Of a stretch of 36,913 nt of DNA, positions 5,894-36,913 are shown piece by piece. Location of the stretch: contig JAUVXQ010000003.1 of the NCBI GenBank assembly GCA_030603505.1, forward strand, positions 1 to 36,913, read 5' to 3'. This DNA comes from Candidatus Heimdallarchaeota archaeon (GTDB lineage Archaea > Asgardarchaeota > Heimdallarchaeia > Heimdallarchaeales > Heimdallarchaeaceae). Within the stretch, counting starts at the first letter, position 1, and each line of letters opens with the position of its first letter. The notes under the pieces were generated by a model, which was not told the DNA's origin, ran no database searches, and saw only the letters and a program-made list of their open reading frames with translations. Both the position numbers and the translations under genes were made by a program.

Positions 5894-8452
5894 TTAATAT
5901 TCCCTTCCTTGTGCTGTAACATCTGGAAGTTGGTCGTTTATAGAAGAGAGAGCATCAGTAATAATAGTAATGTTTCCTGTTAAGTCATCAGGATTGGCTA
6001 ACGATCCTTCTTCTGCGATTGATAATACGTTATTGAAGTTACCAATGATACTATCTAATGTGTTTTTTATGTTTATTAATGCCGTTCTTGAATCTTCAAG
6101 CTGTACCATTTCACCAGCTTTGGTTTCATTCATATACATAATTGCCAAATCCATCTCAGACAATGCACTATGGAAAGAATTGTTAGCAGCAACAAAACTA
6201 TCACTCGCATCTCCAAATTGCGTGTTGTTAAATTGAGTTTCTCCCGCTGTTACGTTAGCATATGTATACTTTAGATGTTCCATAGAGTTGAAAAGATGAT
6301 AAAATGAATGGGCAATATTATTCGCATTTATTACATTAGACGTTAAATTAAAACCATTTAAGAAGTTAGCAATTTTTCGACTAGGTTTGCTAAACATTTC
6401 ATATGTTCCATTATTGGCGTTTGATTGTATAATTGAGATTCTATTTTCTATTGAGTATGCGGTGTTGTTTAGATTATCGGTTAAATAAATAATATCAAGA
6501 ACCTCGGATTGTAATGAAGAATAATCATCTATATTCTCATACCCAACACCAAAACTTTCAACCACATGGGTCAAATCGCCATAAACAGTTCCTACATCAA
6601 TTCCAAAGGAACTTATATCAACAGCCAATGCAGCCATATCATATAGAAAGCTTAGAGTACTGTTAAGAAATGGTGTATCGGAATTAATCACCCGTATTAT
6701 TTCTTCCTTTCCAAACTCATTATATACCACACTAAAATTTGAATTGGCTTGCTCAAAGAAAAATTCTGTTCCATTGAATGAACTATAATCACCAACGTTT
6801 AAAGCCGCTTTTATCAGATTATAAGACCCATACAAGAAGTGTGTAAGAGTAGTATATTGGGATTTCTCACCATTGACCAGCGGTTGCTCAATTAAAGCTT
6901 CAAGAGCATCGGTTGCGTTAGTAAACAAATACAGATACTGTTCCATTTCTTGTATTTTTGTCTTAACGAACTCAGCATTATTCCCAAGTAATGTGTCTAG
7001 CACATTGTAAATATCTGAAAATTCAATTTTTTTAACCTCTTCATATGCATCTTTAATAAGGTCAGTACTATTACCAAGATGCATTATTCCATCGTTAACT
7101 TTTGCCATACCTTGTTCAAACAGACTATCATTAATTTGATATCTTTTAATGCGGTATTTTTCTGTTGTTGAATCGCCATACGGCTCAACACATAAAGGAA
7201 TTGATATACTATAATTTAATGCATCAGTAACATCTTGGAATCCTTGGTATATCTGATAAGAACCATTGATAAACGGTTCAATTCCTCCAAGAAGTATAAG
7301 CGATGCATATAAGAAGTGAAGAAGATCATCTGTAATTTTTGTAATAATACCAAATACAAAAGAAAACATCTCAATACTTTTACTTCCATCTTGAATATAT
7401 TCAGCAGCTAAGCTGAAGTTCGCTAGTATTTGGTTAATTTCCTCTTGAGTAATATTGTCAAAATCATCTATTCCTTGAATTCCATTTGCTATATGGATTA
7501 TACCTTGCGTTGATGCTGAGCCAAAATTGACAAGGCTACCCATGGCAAGATGAACAATTGGGGTAATTATCAAACCAATTATTAAGAAAAGAAGTGCAAA
7601 GACCAGTGCTATTATCTTTTTTAGTTTAATTTCTGATCTAAATATTTGTATTAACCACGTTAGCGCCAGAAGAGAAAATATGAACATTGGGATAGCAATA
7701 ACAAAATCAATTAAGAGAGCAAGTAGGCTATATTCTTTAATTGTTTCGATTGTAATATCCCCTGGTAATGTAATGTTCCTGCCATAGAGAGCAAGTCCTG
7801 CTTCTGCAGTCTCCAAAAGGAAATCAGTTCTTTCAGAAATAGGGGCAAATGGATTGTATACTGGAGCACCAACATAGTGAAAAAGAAAACTTGCACCAAA
7901 TAGGAGTATTAGTAAGAGAGGTACAGAAAGGGCAGCTATTTTTTTGCTACGCACGATAGCACTATAACCTATTAAACCAGCTACACCGAGAGCATATGCA
8001 ATTATGCTTGCGGTTACACTATCGCGAGGATGGAGAGAGATTTCAAGGAGAAAGATAAGTACAATATTAAAAAGGAAGAAGAATAAGAGTCCCCACCAAA
8101 AAACATACTTACGCTTTTTTTCTTCAACTTCCTCCTCCTCAGTTTCTTCTCTTGTAGTTTGTGCTCGAAAACTATCAACTAAATATTCAGGGCGCGTCAC
8201 TTCCTCTTTTTTAAGTATATCTCTTACTATTGGCTTAGGTGAGGGTATTTCTGAAATAAGTATTGGTTTCTGTTGTGCGGTCTTTGGTTGAGAAGGAGGA
8301 AATGGTCGAACTGGTTTAGGAGGGTATTCTTCTTCTGTTGGTTCTTCTGTTACTTCTTCTGTTGGTTCTTCTTCTACTTTTAGTTTTTTTTCATCATTTT
8401 GTTCAGAAGAAACACGACGAGGAGGTTTAGGAGGTAGGTTTTCTTCATTCAT
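5894..8452 (-). CDS. Large membrane protein: proline-rich cytoplasmic tail, five TM helices, big sequon-rich outer domain
   Basis: An 852-residue protein that I cannot assign to a family. Residues 1-115 are disordered, rich in Pro, Glu and Lys (LPPKPPRR, EEPTEEVTEEPTEEE, a KKR cluster before the membrane). Five membrane helices follow at about 116-137, 145-166, 172-192, 242-270 and 278-302. The remaining 550 residues are hydrophilic and largely helical, with no C-terminal anchor. With a cytoplasmic N-terminus and five helices they would face outside; some 18 NxS/T sequons there (for example NITQ, NGSY, NSTD, NNTA, NVTA) fit an N-glycosylated archaeal surface domain. It is a single gene between nep1 (convergent) and a tRNA. 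A cell-surface or adhesion role is only a guess. Confidence 0.8.
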   Translation of the reverse strand: MNEENLPPKPPRRVSSEQNDEKKLKVEEEPTEEVTEEPTEEEYPPKPVRPFPPSQPKTAQQKPILISEIPSPKPIVRDILKKEEVTRPEYLVDSFRAQTTREETEEEEVEEKKRKYVFWWGLLFFFLFNIVLIFLLEISLHPRDSVTASIIAYALGVAGLIGYSAIVRSKKIAALSVPLLLILLFGASFLFHYVGAPVYNPFAPISERTDFLLETAEAGLALYGRNITLPGDITIETIKEYSLLALLIDFVIAIPMFIFSLLALTWLIQIFRSEIKLKKIIALVFALLFLIIGLIITPIVHLAMGSLVNFGSASTQGIIHIANGIQGIDDFDNITQEEINQILANFSLAAEYIQDGSKSIEMFSFVFGIITKITDDLLHFLYASLILLGGIEPFINGSYQIYQGFQDVTDALNYSISIPLCVEPYGDSTTEKYRIKRYQINDSLFEQGMAKVNDGIMHLGNSTDLIKDAYEEVKKIEFSDIYNVLDTLLGNNAEFVKTKIQEMEQYLYLFTNATDALEALIEQPLVNGEKSQYTTLTHFLYGSYNLIKAALNVGDYSSFNGTEFFFEQANSNFSVVYNEFGKEEIIRVINSDTPFLNSTLSFLYDMAALAVDISSFGIDVGTVYGDLTHVVESFGVGYENIDDYSSLQSEVLDIIYLTDNLNNTAYSIENRISIIQSNANNGTYEMFSKPSRKIANFLNGFNLTSNVINANNIAHSFYHLFNSMEHLKYTYANVTAGETQFNNTQFGDASDSFVAANNSFHSALSEMDLAIMYMNETKAGEMVQLEDSRTALINIKNTLDSIIGNFNNVLSIAEEGSLANPDDLTGNITIITDALSSINDQLPDVTAQGREY

Positions 8453-8543
8453 TAATAAAACACTTAAACATTACTAGAAAAGAGAGAGGTACAACATATT
8501 TATAGATATCGCACCCCCCCGTAATAGAAGAAAATCAGAAAAA

Positions 8544-8677
8544 TGGTGGGGTATGGCGGAGTTGAACCACCGACCATCTGGTGCCTCAGCTTTAGCTCAA
8601 AAAACTTATGAGCCAGACGCTTGTCAGTTTTAGGCTCTCGGCCTAATAAACATCTAACCAGGCTGAGCTAATACCCC
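8544..8677 (-). tRNA. tRNA with CAU anticodon (elongator Met, or Ile2), carrying two introns
   Basis: Acceptor GGGGTAT pairs with ATACCCC, and ACCA is encoded. Intron 1 (8621-8652, 32 bases) splits the 3' strand of the D stem between positions 23 and 24; removal restores GCTC-AGCCTGGTTA-GAGC. Intron 2 (8583-8606, 24 bases) is at the normal 37/38 site; removal gives TCTGG-CTCATAA-CCAGA with anticodon CAU. Both introns have bulge-helix-bulge borders: GTTA/TGAC with bulges GAT and AAG, and CTCA/TGAG with bulges TAA and GCA. Each has its own internal hairpin (TTAGGC/GCCTAA; GTTTT/AAAGC). Elongator Met is the default, but a C34-modified tRNA-Ile2 has the same loop and cannot be excluded. Confidence 0.92.
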
Positions 8678-8813
8678 TTTTATATTGGCTTCTATACTTT
8701 GTTCTATCCTTCTTTTCTTAAATTTTTCTTTTCATTCTCCATTTTTCTGTCATACCACAATTTTTTATTATGTGTTTAAAATAATGTTGTTCACTCTTGT
8801 TTGGTGACATAAA

Positions 8814-9773
8814 TTGGATTCAGCTTTCTTAAAGGTTGTTGAGGATATTCAAGCTCTTCGAATACAAGGCGCGACCAACATAGCTATTGAAGGGGTAAAC
8901 GCCTTTTCATTATTAGGAGAACACATTGATTGTGCTTCATTAGAAGAGCTGTTTGTGAAATTAGAAAAAGCTAGAGAAGTTTTATCAGCTGCTCGTGCAA
9001 CTGAGCCTGCTCTTAGAAATGGATTAAGGTTTATTATGTATAATCTTCGCAAAAAAGCTTCTTCTTTGCAAGATGCACGAGAACTTATTGTATCATTTTC
9101 AAAAGATTATGTTTTATTACTTAAAGAATCAAAAAAGAAAGTCATTTCATATGGAGCTCATCGAATAAAAGATGGTAGTACAATAATGACGCACTGTCAT
9201 TCCTCTCTGTCAACTGGAATCATACTTGAAGCGCATAAACAAGGGAAAGACATCAATGTCTTTTGCACTGAAACAAGACCACTTTATCAAGGGAGAATCA
9301 CTGCAAAAGAACTTGTTTTAGCTGGAGTTCCAACAACTCAAGTAGTTGACAGTGCCATGCGTTGGGTCATAAACAGTTACAATATTGATATAATTATTAC
9401 AGGAGCTGATGCTATAACTAGTCAAGGAACGGTTATAAATAAAATTGGTACTAGACTTTTAGCGCTAGCAGCGAAAGAGATGGATATTCCATTCTATTCC
9501 GCTATTAACTTGCTTAAATATGATCCTGAAACAAGTATAGGAAAGTTAACAGAAATAGAGATGAGAGAATCTTCAGAAATTTGGAAAAATCCTCCTGAAG
9601 GATTAAAATTTCTTAATCCAGCTTTTGAGACCGTATCCCATGATTTAATTGATGGAATCATTTCAGAAGGTGGAGTCTTTGCACCATCTTTTATTTACTT
9701 CATAATACAAGAAAAATATCCATTTATGATTCACGAAGAAATAGGGATGGACAGTATCAATCAAGGTGCTTAA
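8814..9773 (+). CDS. Ribose-1,5-bisphosphate isomerase (aIF2B-like fold)
   Basis: Converts ribose 1,5-bisphosphate to ribulose 1,5-bisphosphate, the RuBisCO substrate, in the archaeal AMP/nucleoside degradation pathway. The 319-residue protein has the family signatures: THCHSS (Cys128, the counterpart of the catalytic cysteine in Thermococcus), CTETRP, and ITGADAI (Asp199, the catalytic aspartate), followed by NKIGTRLLALAA. It starts at TTG 8814, supported by GGTGA six bases upstream. The RuBisCO gene begins 3 bases after its stop, so the two are almost certainly co-transcribed and work consecutively. General eIF2B-alpha or methylthioribose-1-phosphate isomerase are the alternatives, but the RuBisCO neighbour argues strongly for this call. 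AMP phosphorylase, the preceding enzyme, is not in the window. Confidence 0.93.
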   Translation: MDSAFLKVVEDIQALRIQGATNIAIEGVNAFSLLGEHIDCASLEELFVKLEKAREVLSAARATEPALRNGLRFIMYNLRKKASSLQDARELIVSFSKDYVLLLKESKKKVISYGAHRIKDGSTIMTHCHSSLSTGIILEAHKQGKDINVFCTETRPLYQGRITAKELVLAGVPTTQVVDSAMRWVINSYNIDIIITGADAITSQGTVINKIGTRLLALAAKEMDIPFYSAINLLKYDPETSIGKLTEIEMRESSEIWKNPPEGLKFLNPAFETVSHDLIDGIISEGGVFAPSFIYFIIQEKYPFMIHEEIGMDSINQGA

Positions 9774-9776
9774 ATT

Positions 9777-11027
9777 ATGAATGAAGAATTCAAAGAATTA
9801 TTAATTGCAAAATATTACGTTGAACACGTGAAAAGCGTTGAAAAAGCCGCAGAAGAGATATGTGATGAAGAATCAGTAGGCACATGGACAGATTTAACAA
9901 CAACTGTAGGCAAACCACATATAGCTCAACTTAGAGCAGAAGTATTAGACAAACAGGTTTTTGATGATCATGGAGATTACCAAAGCGGTGAAGTTACTAT
10001 CGGGTTTCAAACCGAAACCTTTGACTTAGAAGCAGGGATAACTAGTATCCTTTCCATGGTAGCTGGAAATTTGTTTGGTTTAGGAGCTCTACGGAATATT
10101 CGTTGGTTAGATGTCGAGTTTCCTCGAAGTATTATTGAAATTTTCCCTGGACCAAAATTTGGTATTGAGGGAGTCAGAAAGATTATTGGGACAGATAAAG
10201 GAGAGTTTCCAAATAGACCACATATTGGAACAATTGTTAAACCAAAAATGGGCTTAACAGCACAAGAATGGGCAGATGTTACGTATGAAGCTGCTATCGG
10301 TGGTGTCGATTTTATTAAAGATGATGAGAATTTGAGTGATCAACACTTTTGTCCTCTTGAAGACAGAGTTATCCAAGTATTAGAGAGGCTAGATCAAGTA
10401 AAAGAGGAAACAGGTAGAACTGTAATACATGCAGTTAATGTTACTGCGACTCATGATGTAATGTGGAAACGTATTGAAACAGCTTTAGATAATGGTGCAA
10501 AATGTCTAATGATTGATGTAATTTTAACCGGTTATCAAGAACTTGCTCAAATGGCTCGTGACCCAAGTGTCAAGGTCCCAATCCATGTTCATCGAACAAT
10601 GCACGCAGCTTTCACACGTAATCAAAAACACGGAATTTCCATGCTTCCTGTAGCTAAGATTGTGAGAATGTTAGGAGGAGATCAATTACATATAGGATCC
10701 TATGGACAAGGGAAAATGGATACTGATCTCGAACTTGAACTTCAACTTAAGCAATCTTTAATCGAACCAATGTATGAACTCAAAACTACCTTTCCAGTTG
10801 CTTCTGGTGGATTATATCCAGCTAAGATACCTAACCTAGTTAAGTATGGCGGGAATAATGTTATTATACAAGCTGGAGGTGGAATACATGGACACCCTGA
10901 TGGAACTCGGAAAGGTGCGATGGGTATGCGTCAAGCTTTAGATGCAACTTTGAAAGGGATATCCCTAGATGAATATGCTAAAGACCATCAAGAGTTGGCA
11001 AAAGCACTTGAAAAATGGGGAAAATAA
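9777..11027 (+). CDS. rbcL: Form III ribulose-bisphosphate carboxylase, large chain
   Basis: Adds CO2 to ribulose 1,5-bisphosphate to give two 3-phosphoglycerates. All catalytic positions appear intact in this 416-residue chain: GTWT (36-39), Asn98 in MVAGNLFG, KPKMGL (Lys155, Lys157), the carbamylation loop KDDE (Lys181, Asp183, Glu184), HVHRTMH (His272, Arg273), loop 6 lysine in GSYGQGKM (Lys313), and the phosphate-binding ASGG and AGGG segments. The intact loop excludes a form IV RuBisCO-like protein. Short length and the isomerase partner directly upstream place it with archaeal form III, which serves AMP salvage rather than a Calvin cycle. No phosphoribulokinase gene is seen. It ends about 160 bases before a tRNA-Gly pair. 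Confidence 0.97.
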   Translation: MNEEFKELLIAKYYVEHVKSVEKAAEEICDEESVGTWTDLTTTVGKPHIAQLRAEVLDKQVFDDHGDYQSGEVTIGFQTETFDLEAGITSILSMVAGNLFGLGALRNIRWLDVEFPRSIIEIFPGPKFGIEGVRKIIGTDKGEFPNRPHIGTIVKPKMGLTAQEWADVTYEAAIGGVDFIKDDENLSDQHFCPLEDRVIQVLERLDQVKEETGRTVIHAVNVTATHDVMWKRIETALDNGAKCLMIDVILTGYQELAQMARDPSVKVPIHVHRTMHAAFTRNQKHGISMLPVAKIVRMLGGDQLHIGSYGQGKMDTDLELELQLKQSLIEPMYELKTTFPVASGGLYPAKIPNLVKYGGNNVIIQAGGGIHGHPDGTRKGAMGMRQALDATLKGISLDEYAKDHQELAKALEKWGK

Positions 11028-11293: not shown

Positions 11294-11395
11294 GCTCGCG
11301 TAGTCTAGTTGGCATGACTCAGAGTGTTTTATTTAAAAAACACGAGTAACCCTGCCACGGCTGGAACCCGGGTTCAAATCCCGGCGCGTGCACCA
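11294..11395 (+). tRNA. tRNA-Gly (GCC) with a non-canonical intron inside the anticodon stem; CCA encoded
   Basis: Removing 27 bases (11323-11349) from within the 5' strand of the anticodon stem, between positions 29 and 30, gives CAGCC-CTGCCAC-GGCTG with anticodon GCC. The borders form a bulge-helix-bulge motif: helix ACTC/GAGT, bulges AGA and AAC, cut after the second base of each, with an inner hairpin GTGTTTT/AAAACAC. D arm GTCTAGTTGGCATGAC and T arm CCGGGTTCAAATCCCGG are intact. The acceptor stem GCTCGCG/CGCGTGC has one U3-U70 mismatch, the only defect seen. Without recognising the intron the gene looks like a tRNA with a broken anticodon arm. Confidence 0.9.
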
Positions 11396-14354: not shown

Positions 14355-14586
14355 TAAAGTGCGCCATGGCCCCCCAAAAATTAGAATTGGCAAAAAAGGG
14401 ATAACAGAGAACATCATAAAGGAAATTAAATCTTTACTAAAAATAGACAAAACTATTAAAATAAAATGTCTACATGTGATACCCAAAGAATCAGTTGAAG
14501 CAATTGCTCAAAATATAGTAAGATTAACTAATAGCAATATCATAGAACTCAGAGGAAAAACAATTATTTTACAAATAAAAAACTAG
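14338..14586 (+). CDS. YhbY/CRM-domain RNA-binding protein
   Basis: An 82-residue single CRM domain, the fold of YhbY, which associates with pre-ribosomal large-subunit particles in bacteria; archaeal homologues are taken to be ribosome-assembly or RNA-binding factors. The conserved core PKIRIGKKGITENIIKEI, including the GKKG loop, is followed by KTIKIKCL, VEAIAQNIVR and the last strands IIELRGKTIILQIKN. It starts with GTG 14338, five bases after GGAGGG, inside the end of rnp4. Its stop codon overlaps the stop codon of the convergent methyltransferase gene (four bases, 14583-14586). Confidence 0.9.
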   Translation: MKELINKVRHGPPKIRIGKKGITENIIKEIKSLLKIDKTIKIKCLHVIPKESVEAIAQNIVRLTNSNIIELRGKTIILQIKN

Positions 14587-16877
14587 CAATGGTCCAGAGA
14601 CTTTTTTACTTCAACTACTTCAGGGAAAGAGAGGATTTTGTGAATTTGCGTGCTTACTGGCTTGTTGTTGACTAAATCTAGATACTTTTTGTAGCTCCTT
14701 TCTATATTTCTATCAGTAACATCTTTTTCCAGTAAGAACAGGTTTTCCTCTTCAATCACTTCATTAAGACTTGACGATATTTTATCTCTAAAATATACCT
14801 CAAAAACTAGATTGTTTAGCATGACGACAAGAGATTTTTGTAGGTTTTGAATATCTCGACTTAAATCTCTATTTTGGATTAATCTTAAGTTAATCACTGT
14901 TTTTACTATTTTCTGAAAATTTTCTTGATTTAGTAGTTTTGGAATCGGAATTCGGGCAATTTGATTTGTACGGAAATCATATAGATTGAAGACTTTCTTA
15001 TTTACTATTTGGGTGTAATATTGAATCATAGTAGAATTAAGAACAGCAAGGAGATAATACCAGTTTATCTTTTCGATAAATTCATCCTTAATCGCTAGTG
15101 TAATAACATCTGTTTCATTTATTGTTGAAGGAGAGTTTTCATCAACTAAAGCAAATTTGTTTCTTTCATTTTGGTAGGGGCAGATTATTTTTGGCACACG
15201 ATTTATTAAAGAAAGAGAACGGTAGGCAACGTAATCATAAAATTCTTTTAGTTTATATTTTATTTTTGAGCTCTCTAAACGGGATTTGTATTTTTTCAAA
15301 TAATTAAATAATGTTGGGTAATCTTCTATATTTTTTCCTTTTAAAAAAATCCAATACTGATCACTTTTGTTCCAGAAAAATTGTTGTATGTCTCTATTCT
15401 TTATCAACAACCGTAAACCATCGACTTCAGAATCAGGTAAGTTGACTTGGATACGATTATACCCTTCATAGGTTGATTTGGATAATTTTTTTAGACAAAA
15501 TATGTTGTTGTTGCCTGTTGAACACCCTTTACCAATACTACAGATACCTGTAAATGATTGTGATTTCTTATCATCACCGAGATAGTAGGAAGAATGATCT
15601 TCCATATAATCAATTATGGGGGTCTTTCCAAAAATCCATCTTTTATCCGTGAGTTCTGCTTGTTTTATCTCTACATTAGAAAAATTAGCCTTATTGATAT
15701 GGGATATAGTCCCTATTTTATTGAGGAAGTAGACATCAACTAATGTTTGACCCGGGAGTTTTTTCTCAATAGAAACGATAGCTGTATCTACTCCTAAACG
15801 TCTTTCTCTTTGATAAAAAACAGTTCTATTACTCCGAAAATCTATAATTTCTCTAATAGTAGAATTTGATAATAAAAACTGTCTTAGGGAATCGCTATCA
15901 GTTCCTTCAAGCCAATATCTCGGAGTAATAAATGAAATTAGACCTCCCCTCTTACACAGATTCAATGCTCTTTCCCAGAAGATATTTGAAATATCTCCAT
16001 TTGAATTATAAGTTGAATAGATACTTTTGTAGACTCTTCGTTCACCAAGATTTAGTTTTTTTACATTTATGTATGGTGGATTACCAACAATTACATCAAA
16101 ACCACCACAAGCGTGAACCCTTGAAAATTGTTTAAACCAATGAATAAAAGGTTGTTTCATTAGCCATTTCTTTGCAAAATTTATATCTTTTTGTGATACA
16201 ATGGACAAGACTTTTTTTTCCCATTCTTTATCTATATTTTTAATTCCAACATGACATTCTTGAAGAAAATCGTAACCTAAAAGACTATTACTTACAATAA
16301 AATTGGGTGTTATAAACGGTAGAGTTTCACTTTTTGTGTTCTTGAAAGCGTGCTCATACAGTTTTAGTTTAGCTAAATAAACTGATTCAGAAGAAATGTC
16401 TAAGCCATAAAGATTATTTCTAATAATACAGAAAATTATCTTTTCTTTTATAGTTTCGTCACCCAATGATGAAAAATTCCCGTAGTTTTCACTTTTTAGT
16501 AGATTACTACATGTTAAATAAATATCAAACAAAAAGTCAAATGAGCGTAAAAGAAAAATACCCCAACCCATCGCAATGTCGCAAATTGTGAACTGAGGCA
16601 GTATTTGATGATATAGCAATGAAGCGATATGAACATTTCTCTGCTTTAGAGCTTCCTTAAAGTTTGTTAATTCTTTTAGACCTAATATTTTACTTAATTT
16701 GCTATTTAGTGAATAAAGTATGGTTTTATCAAGAATATAATCTACCACAAAATCAGGAGTGTAAAAGAGTCCTTTACCTTTTTTTTGATCACTAGACTGA
16801 GAAAATATTAGCTTTTCTGTAGAAATTATTCCATTCTTTATCTGATCAAAAGATACTCTTTTACCACTTTTTAACAT
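14583..16877 (-). CDS. Adenine-type DNA methyltransferase with TaqI-like specificity domain, apparently without a nuclease
   Basis: Gamma-class N6-adenine methyltransferase of the Eco57I/TaqI type. SAM-binding parts are GLFYTP (36-41), motif I DIAMGWG (100-106) and the acidic GLDIS (158-162); the catalytic motif IV is VIVGNPPY (NPPY at 266-269). The C-terminal half contains SIGKGCSTGNNNIF, typical of the TaqI-like target-recognition domain. Type IIG enzymes carry a PD-(D/E)XK nuclease before the methyltransferase; here only 35 residues precede motif X, so restriction activity is unlikely from this chain. No restriction gene lies next to it. It may be an orphan methylase, a relic of a restriction system, or an epigenetic regulator. 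The neighbours are housekeeping genes, which suggests insertion into the chromosome. Confidence 0.9.
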   Translation of the reverse strand: MLKSGKRVSFDQIKNGIISTEKLIFSQSSDQKKGKGLFYTPDFVVDYILDKTILYSLNSKLSKILGLKELTNFKEALKQRNVHIASLLYHQILPQFTICDIAMGWGIFLLRSFDFLFDIYLTCSNLLKSENYGNFSSLGDETIKEKIIFCIIRNNLYGLDISSESVYLAKLKLYEHAFKNTKSETLPFITPNFIVSNSLLGYDFLQECHVGIKNIDKEWEKKVLSIVSQKDINFAKKWLMKQPFIHWFKQFSRVHACGGFDVIVGNPPYINVKKLNLGERRVYKSIYSTYNSNGDISNIFWERALNLCKRGGLISFITPRYWLEGTDSDSLRQFLLSNSTIREIIDFRSNRTVFYQRERRLGVDTAIVSIEKKLPGQTLVDVYFLNKIGTISHINKANFSNVEIKQAELTDKRWIFGKTPIIDYMEDHSSYYLGDDKKSQSFTGICSIGKGCSTGNNNIFCLKKLSKSTYEGYNRIQVNLPDSEVDGLRLLIKNRDIQQFFWNKSDQYWIFLKGKNIEDYPTLFNYLKKYKSRLESSKIKYKLKEFYDYVAYRSLSLINRVPKIICPYQNERNKFALVDENSPSTINETDVITLAIKDEFIEKINWYYLLAVLNSTMIQYYTQIVNKKVFNLYDFRTNQIARIPIPKLLNQENFQKIVKTVINLRLIQNRDLSRDIQNLQKSLVVMLNNLVFEVYFRDKISSSLNEVIEEENLFLLEKDVTDRNIERSYKKYLDLVNNKPVSTQIHKILSFPEVVEVKKSLDHC

Positions 16878-31523: not shown

Positions 31524-33113
31524 TTAAAGGTAAGAGGGTAGAACCCAATTTCTCATGGTTTGTTGATGCTGAAAAAGCAGTTGTTCCAATTTTGTGAAAC
31601 GATGCTTCCTACACTTCTTTATAGCCATGTATTGAACTGCGGGTGCAAGAGGGTCACCATTTCTAAATTCTCCCACTTGAATAAAGGCCTTCATGAAGAT
31701 TCTCATCTCCAAAACTTCGATTTTGTGAAGTTGATCTTTATATTTTCTAAGTAAGGGATAAATTTCGTCAAAACGTTGTAAATCAAGTAATTCTTGAGCT
31801 AAAAGCAAACCAGCATAAGTATCTTCAATAAAAGTGGTATTGTCAGTTCTTATTCTATTCTTTAGAATGTTAATACAATTAAGATGTCTTTGCTCATCAC
31901 TGATTTCTTCATCAGTTATTGTTTTTTCTATCATGAACTCTATTATGTGTTTTACTCTATTAAGACTGAAATAATTGGTATTAGATAGTTCTTTCAACGT
32001 ATGATTATCTAAATTTGCGTTTAAGATGAATTCTGTTAGCAACAAGAAATCACTATAATGGTTCTTACAACCTTCAATTATTTCATCAATTAAATCTAGA
32101 GATGTCTCTAAGTCAAAGTCTATTTTGCGTGAATATACGTAGAATTTGATTAAATTGAGTGTATGCAAAATCTGACTTTCAGTGTTTTTATCAAGGTTTT
32201 TAATATAAAATTCTTTTTTAAGTAACTTATCTACTTCATTAATCATTTCAAAGGCTTGGATGATTTTACCCTGCAAGGCTTTAACAACCGAAAAATAGGC
32301 ACATAAGGTTATAAAATAACTGAAATAAATGCTTTTTTCGCTGACTAGCTTCAGAATATCATATGCATCTGTAAAAGACGATTCAGCCAAAGATAGGTTC
32401 GAGTTTAGTAAATGAGTTAAACCAGTGAAGTAGTAAACGATTCCTTTAACATCATCTGGCATTTTATTGAATAAAGATTTATTGGAGAGTATTTTTATGC
32501 TAGTTTCCAGTGCTTTTTTATTGTCTTGTGTTCTCATATAAATAACACTTAACATTCCGAGTGTTTGAGCTAAACTTCTGTAAAATTTGTTGTGATAAAA
32601 ATAATTTAAGCAATCCTCGAATATTTGAATACTCGTAGGATCATGTTCTTCTAACCATTTATCGACTGCATATGAATAAAGTATAAAATAATGTATGTAT
32701 TTATCACAATCTGTTAGTTGGTTCAAAATTTCAAGAGATTTATCCATAGCTTTCGCGCTTTTTTCCTTATTTCCTTTAATCTTTTCAGCATACCATATGT
32801 AGGAATAAGCCCAAACTATGCCGTCTTGATAATTTATCTCTTCAGAAATAGTTAGCATTTCATTGATTAGTTGAGAAGCAAGTGGAAGCTTTTCTTTAAA
32901 ATTGTATATAATAGGTATTTTGTAACCATAAAGGTTTACCAATGCCTTTTTATCATCAATAATCCTACATTTCTCTATAGTTTTATCAATTAGTTCTGAA
33001 ACCCCATGAGATTTTTCATTAGATGCAAGTAATTGTAAATTTCTAACAGCTGACCAAAGATCCTCACTGTTTTCTATCTCCTCTATCTGTTTTTCCATGT
33101 CTTCAAGTGACAA
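31524..33113 (-). CDS. TPR-like helical repeat protein (cassette 1)
   Basis: A 529-residue protein made of consecutive helix pairs, resembling degenerate TPRs (for example NYQDGIVWAYSYIWYAEKIK, FYRSLAQTLGMLSVIYMRTQ, DVKGIVYYFTGLTHLLNSNL). No DNA-binding, enzymatic or membrane domain is seen. The start is fixed by comparison with its paralogue at 36427: both begin TTG-TCN-x-GAA-GAC-ATG after the same GGTGATT site, so the GTG at 33122 is not the start. Paralogy is strong in the EEINYQDG, SLEILNQL and SYAVDKWLEEHDPTS regions. Two peptide genes lie directly upstream on the same strand. By analogy with RRNPP receptors a peptide-binding solenoid is conceivable, but this is inference. Confidence 0.8.
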   Translation of the reverse strand: MSLEDMEKQIEEIENSEDLWSAVRNLQLLASNEKSHGVSELIDKTIEKCRIIDDKKALVNLYGYKIPIIYNFKEKLPLASQLINEMLTISEEINYQDGIVWAYSYIWYAEKIKGNKEKSAKAMDKSLEILNQLTDCDKYIHYFILYSYAVDKWLEEHDPTSIQIFEDCLNYFYHNKFYRSLAQTLGMLSVIYMRTQDNKKALETSIKILSNKSLFNKMPDDVKGIVYYFTGLTHLLNSNLSLAESSFTDAYDILKLVSEKSIYFSYFITLCAYFSVVKALQGKIIQAFEMINEVDKLLKKEFYIKNLDKNTESQILHTLNLIKFYVYSRKIDFDLETSLDLIDEIIEGCKNHYSDFLLLTEFILNANLDNHTLKELSNTNYFSLNRVKHIIEFMIEKTITDEEISDEQRHLNCINILKNRIRTDNTTFIEDTYAGLLLAQELLDLQRFDEIYPLLRKYKDQLHKIEVLEMRIFMKAFIQVGEFRNGDPLAPAVQYMAIKKCRKHRFTKLEQLLFQHQQTMRNWVLPSYL

Positions 33114-33116
33114 ATG

Positions 33117-33195
33117 AATCACCTAACTCAATTATACTCAGTGAAATAGTCTTTATAAACCGTTGTTCTTAGATTGCAGTTAGATTACAGTTTTT
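33117..33195 (-). promoter_or_regulatory. Promoter of TPR-like gene 1, with tandem 11-bp element; inverted copy of 36344-36422
   Basis: 79 bases, two mismatches to the copy before the second TPR-like gene. It contains, in order, CTGTAATCTAACTGCAATCT (two CTGYAATCTAA units one helical turn apart), a TATA-like GGTTTATAAAG, and the ribosome-binding GGTGATT. The tandem units directly before the TATA box are a candidate regulator-binding site. Confidence 0.75.
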
Positions 33196-33263
33196 ATATT
33201 ATCACCCTTCTAATTTTACATTGATTTTACAAAAAAAGAAAAAGAAAGATGCTTCCTCAAGGC

Positions 33264-33320
33264 CTAGGGTTGCCAAATAGGTGGAAGGATCGAATCATCG
33301 CCATCTTCAGGGTCAAACAT
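33264..33320 (-). CDS. Micro-peptide P1 (18 residues, 'ILPP' type)
   Basis: Encodes MFDPEDGDDSILPPIWQP. It is acidic at the start and ends PPIWQP. Support: three homologues in this window (33479, 35978, 36186) with the shared core [FY]DP...GD..I[LT]PPxW[QS]P, a Shine-Dalgarno-like AGTGAT four bases before ATG, a conserved upstream block and a T-rich terminator. Codons CCA-CCT for the PP pair are shared with P3. No hydrophobic leader is present. It lies 150 bases upstream of the TPR-like gene 1 start. No known family is recognised. Confidence 0.75.
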   Translation of the reverse strand: MFDPEDGDDSILPPIWQP

Positions 33321-33392
33321 TGTAATCACTTTTAATTGTGTTAATCTAAATATGGGATGAAGATTAAAGAACAGCACAGAAAAAAAGTGACA
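33321..33392 (-). promoter_or_regulatory. Conserved promoter/leader block of micro-peptide P1
   Basis: On the minus strand: TGTCACTTTTTTTCTG, then GCTGTTCTTTAATCTT (TATA-like), and a leader ending TTAACACAATTAAAAGTGAT. The same block, nearly unchanged, precedes P3 and P4. A looser copy (TTGTGTTCTTTAATATCTT ... AAAGGTGAT, 33548-33606) precedes P2. A start about 25 bases after TTTAAT would place the leader in the TTAGATTAACAC segment. Confidence 0.6.
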
Positions 33393-33478
33393 AATAATGT
33401 TATCTAGCTATCAAACAGTGCTTTTTCTAAAGAATTCAAAAATACAAAAAAAGAAAAAGAAAAACGCCTCCTCAAGGG

Positions 33479-33547
33479 CTAAGGTTGCCAAAGTGGAGGT
33501 GTGATTGCATCATCGCCATCTTCAGGGTCAAATAGTTTTCTACTCAT
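33479..33547 (-). CDS. Micro-peptide P2 (22 residues, 'ITPP' type)
   Basis: Starts MSRKL and continues with the core FDPEDGDDAITPPLWQP. ATG 33547 has a full GGTGAT four bases before it and a TATA-like TTCTTTAATATC further up. The stretch for FDPEDGDD is base-for-base identical to P1, but the C-terminal half carries the ITPP version with PP codons CCT-CCA, as in P4. The CDS is followed by a conserved CCCTTGAGGAGGC and then TTTTTCTTTTTCTTTTTTTG, a likely terminator. A basic extension MSRK is unique to this member. Confidence 0.75.
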   Translation of the reverse strand: MSRKLFDPEDGDDAITPPLWQP

Positions 33548-33737
33548 GATAATCACCTTTTATATAGAAATGAAGATATTAAAGAACACAAGAAAACAAT
33601 TGACATGATAAAGAAAAAGAAATAATTTTTGATCATCTATTATTATTCGCACGATTTTCCTTAAAAGATTTGAGCTTACTTTATTTTACTCTTATTACAA
33701 AGATAAGTTAAAATTATCAATTTAATTTGATTATTTT

Positions 33738-35201
33738 TCATCTAGATTCCCAATCAAATTCCTTAAATCCCTTTGAGCGTTCTTTCATACGCTTTGCAGC
33801 TTTATCTTTAACTCTATAGATATTATCATAGAAATTATTCACTTGTTCAGCTTTTTCCCTAAATAGTCTCGCTTCTTCCGCTCGTTTCTTAAAATCAAAC
33901 ATGTACTTTAGATATTGGGAAAAGGTCATTTTTTTATCACGTAAGTATTTTCTTAATAAGTAATAAATTGACAAGATTTCAAATATTGTTAATAAAACGT
34001 ATAAAACAATTAATACCCATTCTTTATCAGGTTTTAAAAAAGAGAAGAAAAAAGCAATTGGGAGATAAGTAGCAGATACAAACATAACTGGAACACCTAG
34101 AAAGAGGTAGAGAATTTCGTTAAAAACATTAGCAAACTTAGACCCTTTATTAGCTAGAAAATTTAGAAAATAACGTAAGGATGCAAGAATAAGAAGAACG
34201 ATTGTTACAAGACCAGCTAATATCTTGATTAAATTATTGCCATATATAAAAGCGTAAACGATAAAAAAGACAAAAGTTCCTGCAATTGTTAATCGTTGAA
34301 TTAATTTCTCCCTTCTGAAGATCTTTCTTTTTTCTTTAGAAATAGTCTCCCTGCAATTTATACAAGTATTAAGTAGAGCTAAGGTTAGTTCTCCACAAAG
34401 AGGACACGTAATATACTCCATTTTTTCTTCTATAGGGGTATCTATTGGAACTTTTTCCTTCTTATCATCTTGAAGTTCTGAAATTCGTGTAATTGTTTCT
34501 TTTAACTGTGTTTTCTGCTGTAATTTTGATATCATAGCTTTTTTTTGGGGATGGTTTTTTCTTGTGTAAGGTTTGATATCTTTTTCTAGAATGAAAGTAT
34601 TTATTCTTCTAAAGTCGATGATAAGCTTTAAACCCACAATTAACAGAAGCAAAGATTCTATTGTACCATTGAACGTAAAAAGAAAAATCTGAAAAACTTC
34701 ATCATCAGCATAACTAGCTACCCCTCCCAGAAAGGCTATTATGACCGAATAAAAACCAAATATTGGATAGAAAGGACTTCCAACTCTTAGATCAAATATC
34801 CGCTTAATTTTCTCAAGTGTTTTGTTCATCTTCCAAAAGCCCATAATTCTACCTAAAATGATAGTTAATCCTACAAAACCAGATACACCAGGCCAACCAA
34901 AGACAGCCATATTTAAAAATATTGAACCTGAATAGATATAAAACCAAATAGCTGTTTGCTTACCTGTTTTTGTAATATGATCGATGAAATAGATTTCAGT
35001 GATATTTTTAATCCCTATAGCAATGAAAATAAGAGCGATAGCAACAAGTAAGAATAAGATATATCCTGTGTACTCCCAGTAAAAAAACCAACTTTTAAAA
35101 AATTGATTATAAACATTCAAGAATCCTGATACAATGATTAAAGCTGAACCAAGAATTACAAAAATAATCTCTCGCTGAATAGGATAATTGTGATCATACA
35201 T
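33738..35201 (-). CDS. Polytopic membrane protein with cytosolic zinc ribbon
   Basis: A 487-residue protein with about ten hydrophobic segments in two groups: roughly 11-30, 44-66, 84-101, 105-122, 145-163, 170-195, then 304-321, 325-345, 362-387, 396-417. Between the groups a polar loop (200-300) holds one zinc ribbon, CPLCGEL...CINCRE (Cys266, 269, 280, 283). The last 65 residues are a charged helix (KKRAEEARLFREKAEQVNNF) ending KGFKEFDWESR. I recognise no transporter or protease motif. The gene sits between the two inverted peptide/TPR cassettes and might serve them, but it could equally be unrelated. Confidence 0.75.
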   Translation of the reverse strand: MYDHNYPIQREIIFVILGSALIIVSGFLNVYNQFFKSWFFYWEYTGYILFLLVAIALIFIAIGIKNITEIYFIDHITKTGKQTAIWFYIYSGSIFLNMAVFGWPGVSGFVGLTIILGRIMGFWKMNKTLEKIKRIFDLRVGSPFYPIFGFYSVIIAFLGGVASYADDEVFQIFLFTFNGTIESLLLLIVGLKLIIDFRRINTFILEKDIKPYTRKNHPQKKAMISKLQQKTQLKETITRISELQDDKKEKVPIDTPIEEKMEYITCPLCGELTLALLNTCINCRETISKEKRKIFRREKLIQRLTIAGTFVFFIVYAFIYGNNLIKILAGLVTIVLLILASLRYFLNFLANKGSKFANVFNEILYLFLGVPVMFVSATYLPIAFFFSFLKPDKEWVLIVLYVLLTIFEILSIYYLLRKYLRDKKMTFSQYLKYMFDFKKRAEEARLFREKAEQVNNFYDNIYRVKDKAAKRMKERSKGFKEFDWESR

Positions 35202-35907
35202 CTGTCACATTCAACTTCAGTAGGTTTTCCACCCATAAACGCTTATAAATATGATGTTCCCATTTTTAACATATTTTAGAGTATAAAAAAAATTTAGTAA
35301 ACTTTCAAACGTTTAACAATTGAAATTAATGAGTGCGGAAGTAGAACAAGAAATTAAACTCAAGACTGGTTTTTAATTATAGCTAAAGACTAAAGAACAG
35401 CGCAGAAAGGAGAGAAGGAAAATCTTACCACGTAAATATATGTTTGTGTGGCAAGATATTTTGCTTTTTCTGTGCGCGTTCAAGAAAAAAGTTAAATTCT
35501 TCATCCTTGAGGGTTGTAAAGCAAAATTACCTTATTGAAATTATTTTTCAAAAGTAATCTGTTCCAAGAAGTATTAGTTTTATTGATAAACGTCGTGATA
35601 AGGAATTTGTTGGTTTAACTGAGAATAATATTGGGGAAGAATATGCTGATAGGAAGGTTTACCATGGGTTCAAAGGATAGGTTTTGAACATCTTTGTGAA
35701 TATGGAATTGTGTTTGGATGAGAGATTAAATAAAATTAGTAAGAAATATGAAAATTTGAATGCTTCTTCTAAGAGTTATAATACAACTGTTTAGAGAGCT
35801 TTTAGAAGGATTATTCATGAAATTTAGATTATATGAAACGATTTAACAGTACTGAAGTTGTGATTGAGATAGAATTTATACTTCTTAGTGTCGCATTTTT
35901 AGGTTTA
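35202..35907. other. 706-bp gap without an intact gene: promoter remnant, hairpin and decayed coding sequence
   Basis: It holds the upstream region of the 33738 gene, then a degenerate minus-strand copy of the peptide promoter block at about 35384-35412 (GCGCTGTTCTTTAGTCTT) that is not followed by a peptide frame. A 10-bp inverted repeat follows, ATCTTACCAC/GTGGCAAGAT (about 35422-35458). The rest contains the pseudogene at 35557-35827. This looks like the scar of an older insertion or rearrangement. Confidence 0.5.
35557..35827 (+). pseudogene. Decayed coding fragment with in-frame TAG codons
   Basis: One frame gives protein-like sequence in three pieces: FIDKRRDKEFVGLTENNIGE continuing to YADRKVYHGFKG, then VLNIFVNMELCLDERLNKIS and onward, then RAFRRIIHEI. 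They are broken only by TAG codons (35677, 35794 and 35824 by my count). Composition is coding-like (Lys, Glu, Asn rich). No start or full domain is seen, and I do not recognise the family. Since TAG clearly ends other genes here, loss of function is more likely than readthrough. Confidence 0.45.
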
Positions 35908-35977
35908 TGTCACTTTTTTTCTGTTGTTCTTTAATCTTTTTTGCTCATACTTAGATTAACACAATTAAAAGTGATGT

Positions 35978-36040
35978 ATGATGTACGACCCAACTGAACC
36001 CGGTGATGAAGATATATTGCCACCTATGTGGTCGCCTTAA
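35978..36040 (+). CDS. Micro-peptide P3 (20 residues, 'ILPP' type)
   Basis: Begins MMYDPTEPGD and ends DILPPMWSP. Homologous to P1, P2 and P4. AGTGAT lies two bases before the first of two adjacent ATG codons. The end of the gene and the bases after it form a hairpin, TCGCCTT-AAG-AAGGCGA, followed by a T-rich run: an apparent intrinsic-type terminator overlapping the stop codon. The PP codons are CCA-CCT, as in P1. It is the distal peptide gene of cassette 2. Confidence 0.75.
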   Translation: MMYDPTEPGDEDILPPMWSP

Positions 36041-36076
36041 GAAGGCGATTTTCTTCTCTTTTCTTTTTTGTATCAT
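36041..36076 (+). terminator. Hairpin plus T-rich terminator of P3
   Basis: The hairpin TCGCCTTAAGAAGGCGA starts inside the end of P3 (from 36032) and is followed by TTTTCTTCTCTTTTCTTTTT. P4 has an analogous hairpin with other bases, GAAAGT-ATAA-ACTTTC after its stop, and the same T-rich tail: the structure is kept although the bases differ. Confidence 0.65.
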
Positions 36077-36185
36077 TAACTAATAACGGGTCTGAAATGT
36101 AATAAATTTAGAAAATGTCACTTTTTTTCTGTTGTTCTTTAATCTTTTTTGCTCATAATTAGATTAACACAATTAAAAGTGATGT

Positions 36186-36248
36186 ATGATGTACGACCCT
36201 AGTGAGCCTGGAGATCAAGATATTACTCCTCCATTTTGGAGCCCTTAA
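36186..36248 (+). CDS. Micro-peptide P4 (20 residues, 'ITPP' type)
   Basis: Begins MMYDPSEPGDQ and ends DITPPFWSP. The upstream 80 bases are nearly identical to those of P3, including AGTGAT and the double ATG. Many codons differ from P3 without changing or only mildly changing the residue (GAG/GAA, CCT/CCC, GGA/GGT, ATT/ATA, AGC/TCG for serine). The PP codons are CCT-CCA, as in P2. A hairpin and T-rich tail follow. It lies 178 bases before the start of TPR-like gene 2. Confidence 0.75.
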   Translation: MMYDPSEPGDQDITPPFWSP

Positions 36249-36343
36249 GAAAGTATAAACTTTCTTCTCTTTTCTTTTTTGTATCATTGACTAATAACGT
36301 GTCTGAAATGCAATAAATTCAGAAAATATATGACAAAAAAACA

Positions 36344-36422
36344 AAAAACTGTAATCTAACTGTAATCTAAGAACAACGGTTTTTAAAGACTATTTCACTG
36401 AGTATAATTGAGTTAGGTGATT
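36344..36422 (+). promoter_or_regulatory. Promoter of TPR-like gene 2, with tandem 11-bp element; inverted copy of 33117-33195
   Basis: Carries CTGTAATCTAACTGTAATCT (perfect CTGTAATCTAA units at 36349 and 36360), a TATA-like GGTTTTTAAAG, and GGTGATT shortly before the TTG start. Only two of 79 bases differ from the other copy, while the genes behind them have diverged widely at the protein level. Confidence 0.75.
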
Positions 36423-36426
36423 TTAT

Positions 36427-36913
36427 TTGTCCTATGAAGACATGACTAAAGAACTTAAGATGGTTCAATCTATTGAAGAATTGAGATCTGTGCTTGTTAA
36501 TTTACAGGTTTTTGCATCTAATAATCGATCAAGCAAAAAGGCTTCATTTTTAATTAGGAAAGCAATTGAAAAAAATAAGATGGTAGATGACAAGAAATCT
36601 CGAGTTATTCTGTACGATCTTCAAATCCGTCAACTCTATCACCAAACAAATCATCTGTTAGAAATCAATAACCTTCTTTCCTCGATGCGCTCTTTAACCG
36701 AAGAAATAAATTATCAAGAGGGGTTAGCTCTATTTTATCAACTAACTTGGCATATAGAAAAATCCAAAGATAACAAGAAAATAAGTGTTGAAGCTATCAA
36801 TAAATCACTAAAAATATTAAACAATCTCTCTGAACAGGACGGTTATGTTTACAACTTTTGCAGATACTCTTATGCTGTTGAACGATGGTTGGAAAAGCAT
36901 GATTCTACAAGTG
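36427..36913 (+). CDS. TPR-like helical repeat protein (cassette 2), 5' part only
   Basis: At least 162 residues; the gene runs off the window. It starts at TTG 36427 (MSYEDMTKELKMVQSIEELR), three bases after GGTGATT. It is a paralogue of the 31524-33113 protein: TEEINYQEGLALFYQ, NKSLKILNNL and SYAVERWLEKHDSTS align with the same regions there, while the first 70 residues are more divergent. The visible part is helix pairs only. Two peptide genes precede it on the same strand, mirroring cassette 1. Function unknown; see cassette 1 for the peptide-binding idea. Confidence 0.8.
   Translation, partial: MSYEDMTKELKMVQSIEELRSVLVNLQVFASNNRSSKKASFLIRKAIEKNKMVDDKKSRVILYDLQIRQLYHQTNHLLEINNLLSSMRSLTEEINYQEGLALFYQLTWHIEKSKDNKKISVEAINKSLKILNNLSEQDGYVYNFCRYSYAVERWLEKHDSTS

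Follow-up and report, generated by a model that had tools for sequence, protein, structure and literature searches.

Positions 31,524-36,913 of a 36,913-nt stretch of Candidatus Heimdallarchaeota archaeon DNA (contig JAUVXQ010000003.1; the whole stretch is called the window here) carry two inverted cassettes, in each of which two genes for micro-peptides of 18-22 amino acids lie upstream of a gene for a tetratricopeptide repeat (TPR)-like protein. A first-pass annotation of this DNA had picked out the four micro-genes, and they proved real: a six-frame scan of the window with a regular expression (regex) for the peptide core recovered exactly these four micro-open reading frames (ORFs) and none besides, and a larger system lies behind them. 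The cassettes comprise the following features.

31524-33122, minus strand: TPR-like superhelical protein 1 (TPR 1), 524-532 aa
33152-33190, minus strand: promoter-like stretch of TPR 1, two 11-nt repeats CTGTAATCTAA/CTGCAATCTAA, then TTTATAAA (by eye)
33264-33320, minus strand: micro-peptide gene MFDPEDGDDSILPPIWQP, proximal and presumably cognate to TPR 1, its start preceded by AAAGTGAT
33321-33391, minus strand: peptide promoter/leader block (GTCA...TTTCT...TTTAATC...TTAGATTAACACAATTAAAAGTGAT)
33479-33547, minus strand: micro-peptide gene MSRKLFDPEDGDDAITPPLWQP, distal peptide of cassette 1
33548-33604, minus strand: divergent peptide promoter with GGTGAT ribosome site, before the distal gene 33479-33547
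35909-35980, plus strand: peptide promoter/leader block before the distal gene of cassette 2
35978-36040, plus strand: micro-peptide gene MMYDPTEPGDEDILPPMWSP, alternative start form (M)MYDPTEPGDEDILPPMWSP, distal peptide of cassette 2
36117-36188, plus strand: peptide promoter/leader block before the proximal gene of cassette 2
36186-36248, plus strand: micro-peptide gene MMYDPSEPGDQDITPPFWSP, alternative start form (M)MYDPSEPGDQDITPPFWSP, proximal peptide of cassette 2
36349-36389, plus strand: promoter-like stretch of TPR 2, CTGTAATCTAACTGTAATCTAA repeats, then TTTTTAAAG (by eye)
36427-36913, plus strand: TPR-like protein 2 (TPR 2), of which the window contains only the first 162 codons; assigned by the family profile

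In the plus-strand peptide genes the second ATG (35981, 36189) is equally likely as the start, and for TPR 1 the sequence makes TTG 33113, behind GGTGAT, or ATG 33098 the more likely start. The annotated order, a peptide pair upstream of a paralogous TPR gene on the same strand, was confirmed for both cassettes, the part of TPR 2 inside the window matching the family profile at 173 bits. Each peptide gene had also been credited with a conserved promoter of its own and a GGTGAT ribosome site. A promoter block of about 70 nt is indeed near-identical in three of the genes but divergent in the fourth (33479-33547), and GGTGAT is present only in this fourth gene, the other three having AAAGTGAT.

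Recurrence and coding constraint of the peptide genes

We catalogued micro-ORFs in stretches from 22 of the 23 genomes of one Heimdallarchaeial family, together with the window; genome G014 contributed none, and the catalogue is incomplete, some peptide-pattern matches (for example G007:C199:32971) being absent from it. It holds 144 micro-ORFs, at least one of them a false hit of the regex (G020:C110:6783, kept in the counts). Co-occurrence in related genomes, which the annotation had named as a check, was borne out: homologues recur in 20 of the 23 family genomes, 133/144 lie within 1 kb of a TPR-like match, a share biased by the choice of stretches around TPR matches, plus some around pattern matches without TPR, and the frame is kept. 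The opposite outcome, homologues without a TPR neighbour or a conserved frame, did not appear. The peptides follow the consensus [FY]DPxxGDxx[IL]xPPxWxP with near-invariant DP, GD, PP, W and P, measure 17-32 aa (median 22, mostly 18-23 residues), and are acidic (median charge -4) without a hydrophobic stretch; no Sec-type leader was seen by hydropathy alone, the best 9-residue mean being at most 1.49 across the 144 peptides.

The pairing is strict for long TPR genes of the window's type (ORF >1300 nt, >300 bits). Each of the 68 is preceded on its own strand, at a distance of up to 900 nt, by one peptide ORF or more: one in 45 cases, two in 17 and three in 6. Chance is ruled out because the genes recur in 20/23 genomes, are constrained at the codon level and have a fixed TPR neighbour. 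Some diverged TPR relatives (about 20-26% identity) adjoin variant peptides such as YDPEPxDDExxPPxWFP, and beside eight diverged copies no peptide gene was found. Five of the eight share the same kind of neighbour genes by eye, namely metallo-beta-lactamase-like and UDP-sugar-dehydrogenase-like genes (L056, L064, L072, L081, L095); these five are perhaps the ancestral, peptide-less form.

Coding constraint was measured as the ratio of nonsynonymous to synonymous differences (pN/pS) in a reference set reached via the promoter string alone, comprising 30 ORFs, of which 29 were alignable around PP and 28 were distinct. All 30 begin with ATG, and their pN/pS was 0.37 over all pairs and 0.26 for pairs at most 10 nt apart, against 1.39 and 1.28 in the other two frames. 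The regex-selected set gave 0.15-0.36, a range that is biased since the core regex fixes five codons; restricted to its free codons, the ratio was 0.49 among near pairs and 0.74 among all pairs, the latter with silent sites and third positions near saturation, and the codon count omitted 15 of the 144 peptides without an 11-codon core. Third positions of the fixed D and P codons vary freely. The conserved frame and the pN/pS values therefore show that the peptide genes are under selection for their amino-acid sequence.

In 124 of 143 distinct upstream stretches a motif, GTCAntTTtTTtCTTttggtnTTTtA, begins 70-76 nt ahead of the start codon (17.9 bits, shuffled 5.3). One version of it, with as many as 3 mismatches allowed, matched 31 places in 7 of the 23 family genomes, 30 of them 69-75 nt before a catalogued peptide; the remaining match (G009:C86:4253) precedes a peptide-like core in a longer frame, and the reversed control had no match in the same 23 genomes. 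In G001, the nearest to the window among the genomes compared, the leader TTAGATTAACACAATTARAAGTGAT occurs 5 times, every time before a peptide gene, with one of the six catalogued peptides lacking it. Since the promoter matches lie nearly all before peptides, the peptide genes are a regulon of their own with a private common promoter. T-rich ends, noted by the annotation in the window, are general: a run of five or more T lies within 60 nt downstream of 127/144 catalogued ORFs, against 77 after shuffling. The TPR genes have promoter-like stretches unlike the peptide promoter, one class with tandem CTGCAATYTAA repeats of 11-nt period (e.g. window 33160-33190) and another with TTTATAAATnAATTTGCGGATTA (all by eye). 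A private regulon for the TPR promoter was rejected; its matches include sites remote from any known TPR gene, and one such site is alike in six genomes.

Of 227 Asgard genomes searched with the TPR profile at E 1e-20, 21 were positive, all within the one family's 23 and one of them (G010) with a diverged relative only; outside the family the count was 0/204. At the lax E 1e-3, weak single matches appeared in five genomes from other families of the class (E 2e-6 to 7e-4), which we attribute to general TPR similarity. Among 7997 candidates scored in a protein search, 58 relatives came up; those with names are hypothetical proteins, and the organisms, where given, are Heimdallarchaeota, Asgard group or Thorarchaeota archaea. 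The peptide-core DNA pattern, searched independently of the TPR gene in 96 relatives (counts by our own tally), was present in 28 of them. It matched 129 places in 20/23 family genomes and 8 places in the 73 non-family genomes, the reversed pattern matching 3 places in two genomes. Of the 129, five or more seem to belong to other genes: one is unrelated, and four read DPPL.PPIWRP; the one of these four that was inspected is embedded in a longer frame. A contig binned as a Woesearchaeota metagenome-assembled genome (L164) has a cassette at its end and may be mis-binned; the contig end resembles the 3' end of a 16S rRNA gene by eye, and Rfam reports nothing there. Among viral contigs, 321 stretches matched a pattern and none encodes a relative.

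Matched variation of peptide and TPR protein

The structural model of TPR 1 (524 aa) is a TPR superhelix (predicted local distance difference test score 92), with Rap and NprR among its structural matches. Complete-looking relatives measure 512-540 aa. The most conserved helices of the TPR proteins are 27 and 28 (463-498; mean identity 0.80-0.81). That the proteins could be matched to no described family still stands: Pfam, PADLOC and NCBIfam gave no family above cut-off, the Pfam model TPR_12 reaching a sub-threshold E of 0.0084, the PADLOC defence models 0 families at E 0.1, and NCBIfam NF041717 (HaaT, a TPR protein of ribosomally synthesized and post-translationally modified peptide biosynthesis) E 0.21 with 9.6 bits against a cut-off of 1125. 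The same three collections yielded nothing recognisable as a toxic or enzymatic domain. When the TPR profile (A1) was compared with the sequences of all PDB chains, no RRNPPA-type peptide receptor scored at E 1 or better, a comparison that covers solved receptors only; the matches comprised IFIT1, one antibody chain, and designed repeat proteins and binders, with a best E of 0.003. A peptide compared with the PDB chains matched designed Kelch propellers (SAKe; best E 6e-5) with no single stretch passing alone, and this candidate was set aside as compositional.

We next compared the distances between peptides with those between their TPR proteins. Across 68 pairs the two correlated at r 0.59, against a mean of 0.16 and a maximum of 0.34 in 2000 within-genome shuffles; like the 68/68 pairing, this strongly supports the annotated pairing of peptide and TPR protein. 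The signal was modular when split (66 pairs, 999 within-genome shuffles; two of the 68 dropped, their peptide unfit for the split). The C-tail after W followed TPR residues 1-152 (r 0.48; at most 0.19 in the shuffles) and showed no such relation to 153-440 (r 0.05, p 0.09), while the N-half before PP followed 153-440 (r 0.66, null maximum 0.32), its r with 1-152 being 0.06, yet above nearly all shuffles (partial -0.12). Helices 10 and 13 gave the strongest links for the residue after PP (0.49, 0.44), and residues 441-524 contributed little: their r with the N-half was 0.30, the null mean being 0.22. Between the two peptide halves there was no correlation (0.01). Within-genome pairs only (74) gave 0.74 for N-half/153-440 and 0.47 for C-tail/41-152. 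From the order of this covariation we infer an extended ligand that would run antiparallel to the superhelix.

TPR positions 2, 5, 9, 12 and 13, which we take to be the classic ligand-contact positions, covaried more than positions elsewhere (p 0.0002-0.003, three registers; p 0.016 against random registers per repeat), and swapping peptide features between the two repeat sets lowered the contact difference from 1.08 to 0.49. One-turn register shifts scored alike, or slightly higher in two of three definitions, as expected for one face. In repeats 1-3, the contact positions tracked the C-tail at 0.53 and intergenic DNA at 0.30, with the B helices reversed (0.30, 0.47), and the partial correlation with the C-tail was 0.48 for contact positions, 0.22 for the other A-helix positions and 0.16 for B helices. 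This bias is not explained by linkage, because linkage is blind to helix face. Repeats 4-6 showed no such difference in the uncorrected values (0.44, 0.52, 0.48), so the case for contact there has to be made from the modular order alone. Linkage controls were run on 58 pairs, 8 further pairs having too little upstream or intergenic DNA. The peptide promoter correlated with TPR 153-440 at 0.40; with neighbouring DNA partialled out, C-tail/41-152 retained 0.38 and N-half/153-440 0.60 (both p 0.001). Simple linkage as the full account was rejected only in part.

Proposed mechanism, alternatives and known systems

We propose that each TPR-like protein is probably a cytosolic receptor that recognises the micro-peptide whose gene lies immediately upstream. 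On the covariation in sequence, peptide and TPR protein very probably bind directly, and regulation of the protein by the peptide is fairly likely. The micro-peptide would be translated as such from its own, common and private promoter, and would lie extended and antiparallel in the TPR groove, with its C-tail in repeats 1-3, PPx near helices 10 and 13, and the N-half along residues 200-440. The near-invariant DP, GD, PP, W and P would serve as a common grip and the variable positions as an address, so that paralogous pairs in one cell would be kept apart. Binding may alter the contact of the conserved C-terminal helices (463-498) with a shared partner whose gene lies elsewhere, helices 27 and 28 forming a putative output surface toward a partner common to all paralogues. 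In our search for such a gene (ORFs of at least 70 aa within 4 kb, clustered), no obligate partner was found within 4 kb of the cassettes. The most widespread neighbour cluster was present in 12 genomes, and seven of the nine neighbour proteins typed are core genes (Cdc6, pyrophosphatase, TruA, HerA-like ATPase, ArsR-type helix-turn-helix (HTH) protein, ABC ATPase, FtsX permease), the other two having no match. Of the annotation's proposal of a peptide/TPR signalling or inhibitor system, the pairing has stood, and the role is still a matter of interpretation, with no leader seen by hydropathy and no output partner in that search.

Several observations weigh against the receptor proposal. The variation of distal peptides does not match that of the TPR protein (18 testable; 23 in another count); the registers and the assignment of features to repeats were chosen after the per-residue list was known; repeats 4-6 show no preference for their contact face (partial r 0.40, versus 0.47 and 0.42); and 11/144 peptide ORFs lie >1 kb from a TPR match or on a contig without one, in the DNA covered. 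Further, peptide C-tail, intergenic DNA and TPR 41-152 form a recombination block. Gene conversion operates at the cassettes, and part of the C-tail/TPR 41-152 signal is linkage, because intergenic DNA correlates with both of its partners in the block (0.49 with TPR 41-152 and 0.35 with the C-tail, the latter 0.61 in within-genome pairs). That the genes are nothing but neighbours evolving with gene conversion, the peptide having a role unrelated to TPR, would fit these intergenic correlations and the unfavoured face of repeats 4-6, but it is quite improbable: the N-half tracks TPR 153-440 while skipping the intervening N-terminal part, contact positions are enriched in repeats 1-3 where B helices track intergenic DNA, the partial correlations persist, and all 68 long TPR genes are paired. 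The upstream position would also suit a leader-peptide or RNA control element of the TPR gene, a reading that is hardly credible given the promoter-like stretches between peptide and TPR gene (by eye), the T-rich ends after the peptides, the amino-acid constraint and the result that no Rfam family reached gathering score at the peptide/TPR region, a lax threshold giving two sub-threshold matches.

How a TPR receptor would use its peptide can be read in two ways. The peptides might be leaderless pheromones that are exported, re-imported and sensed by TPR, analogous to Rap-Phr or RopB-SIP, with paralogous pairs as pherotypes; we regard this reading as rather unlikely and correspondingly doubt that the peptide travels between cells. 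Alternatively, the peptide could be an inhibitor, antidote or assembly partner of TPR inside the producing cell, perhaps at a fast-turnover conflict or kin-discrimination locus, which we hold to be possible without favouring it. The missing leader, the acidity, the private promoter and the peptide ORFs far from any TPR match speak for such an intracellular role, as does a broken TPR copy beside intact peptides in G001 (C1:63460-65063, the likely ortholog of window cassette 1, with the TPR frame broken in two and both peptide ORFs open). By contrast, the TPR protein has no recognised toxic or enzymatic domain, and more than one peptide stands before 23/68 receptors. A broader, speculative version is an Asgard peptide language of dozens of leaderless pheromones, each with its own TPR receptor, read by a modular antiparallel code, serving cell-cell recognition or kin discrimination in Heimdallarchaeial cells and of an origin independent of bacterial RRNPP systems; this version is likewise doubtful.

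Rap consists of TPR only, without HTH, and occurs as several Rap-Phr pairs per genome, Phr being a secreted pro-peptide. The archaeal protein resembles it in being TPR only, with no HTH recognised, and in the several pairs per genome; it differs in that no response-regulator-binding bundle was identified. RopB is an Rgg-type regulator with HTH. Its peptide SIP is leaderless, and receptor-peptide co-evolution is reported (PMC10518010), two likenesses to the archaeal pairs. SIP systems are reported in Firmicutes; the SIP stretch of 24 bp encodes about 8 aa, and the archaeal peptides are longer (median 22 aa). RRNPPA systems (Rap, Rgg, NprR, PlcR, PrgX, AimR) of Bacillota likewise place a short peptide gene beside a TPR receptor gene (PMC10075063). 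Like theirs, the archaeal protein is predicted from its model to be TPR-built, and the genes adjoin within 900 nt on one strand in all 68 cases. The archaeal system differs in host, in showing no Sec-type leader by hydropathy, in a common promoter for each peptide, in the single core motif and in lacking a sequence relation to solved receptors at E 1. Validated RRNPPA receptors measure 285-473 aa (PMC10075063), a range outside which the archaeal 512-540 aa fall. Validated propeptides measure 21-50 aa, and the archaeal peptides, at 17-32 aa (median 22), overlap that range in part. LGN-NuMA/Insc, APPBP2-degron and APC5, eukaryotic TPR proteins and complexes, share the fold and the putative extended ligand, but no sequence relation was seen (8-13% identity), and their ligands are parts of proteins rather than micro-gene products.

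PMC12988326 refers to an archaeal viperin system that includes a TPR protein, with no link to peptide/TPR cassettes seen, and the main text of PMC12700828, on RRNPPA, lacks the word 'Asgard'. No account of such an archaeal system was found in the literature covered, which leaves aside bioRxiv preprints and most subscription-journal papers. The peptides and the TPR proteins are a new family each, with no described archaeal counterpart found. Since several features that define RRNPPA are absent, the system may be categorically apart from it, though it could prove to work like one.

If true, our proposal would add archaeal gene-encoded peptides with matched intracellular receptors, in an Asgard lineage related to the ancestors of eukaryotes and from genes of about 60 bases, a size that gene callers commonly pass over. 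It also offers dozens of natural peptide-receptor pairs and a residue-level specificity hypothesis that can be tested in vitro without culturing the archaeon.

Surroundings of the cassettes

Cassettes recur beside or between rRNA genes (L041, L050, L053, L060, L087). L050 has three TPR cassettes in the interval from 16S to 23S. In L041 the space from a 16S 3' end (1-65) to the 23S gene (5969-9545) is occupied by cassettes, and cassettes follow again 73 bases past the 23S; L060 has a TPR gene whose end lies some 160 bases past that of the 23S. The window's own neighbour gene of the cassettes is PEPCK. Between its two cassettes, a minus-strand gene (33738-35201) encodes a membrane protein of 487 aa that has a zinc-ribbon-like motif, CPLC...CINC (by eye), and no match in Pfam, NCBIfam or PADLOC; G001:C1 has a similar-sized ORF at the equivalent position, as compared by place and size. 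Positions 35300-35860, between this gene and cassette 2, look non-coding, with decayed short frames (by eye), and are perhaps the remnant of lost genes.

Elsewhere in the window, a 99-nt tRNA-like gene (11294-11392, plus strand) was reported by Rfam (38.8 bits) and missed by ARAGORN, and is possibly an intron-containing tRNA. A 764-aa protein (14583-16877, minus strand) resembles a lone type II restriction enzyme with an N6-adenine methylase (NPPY motif), and 8814-11027 on the plus strand holds tandem ribose-1,5-bisphosphate isomerase-like and archaeal RuBisCO-like genes (both by eye).

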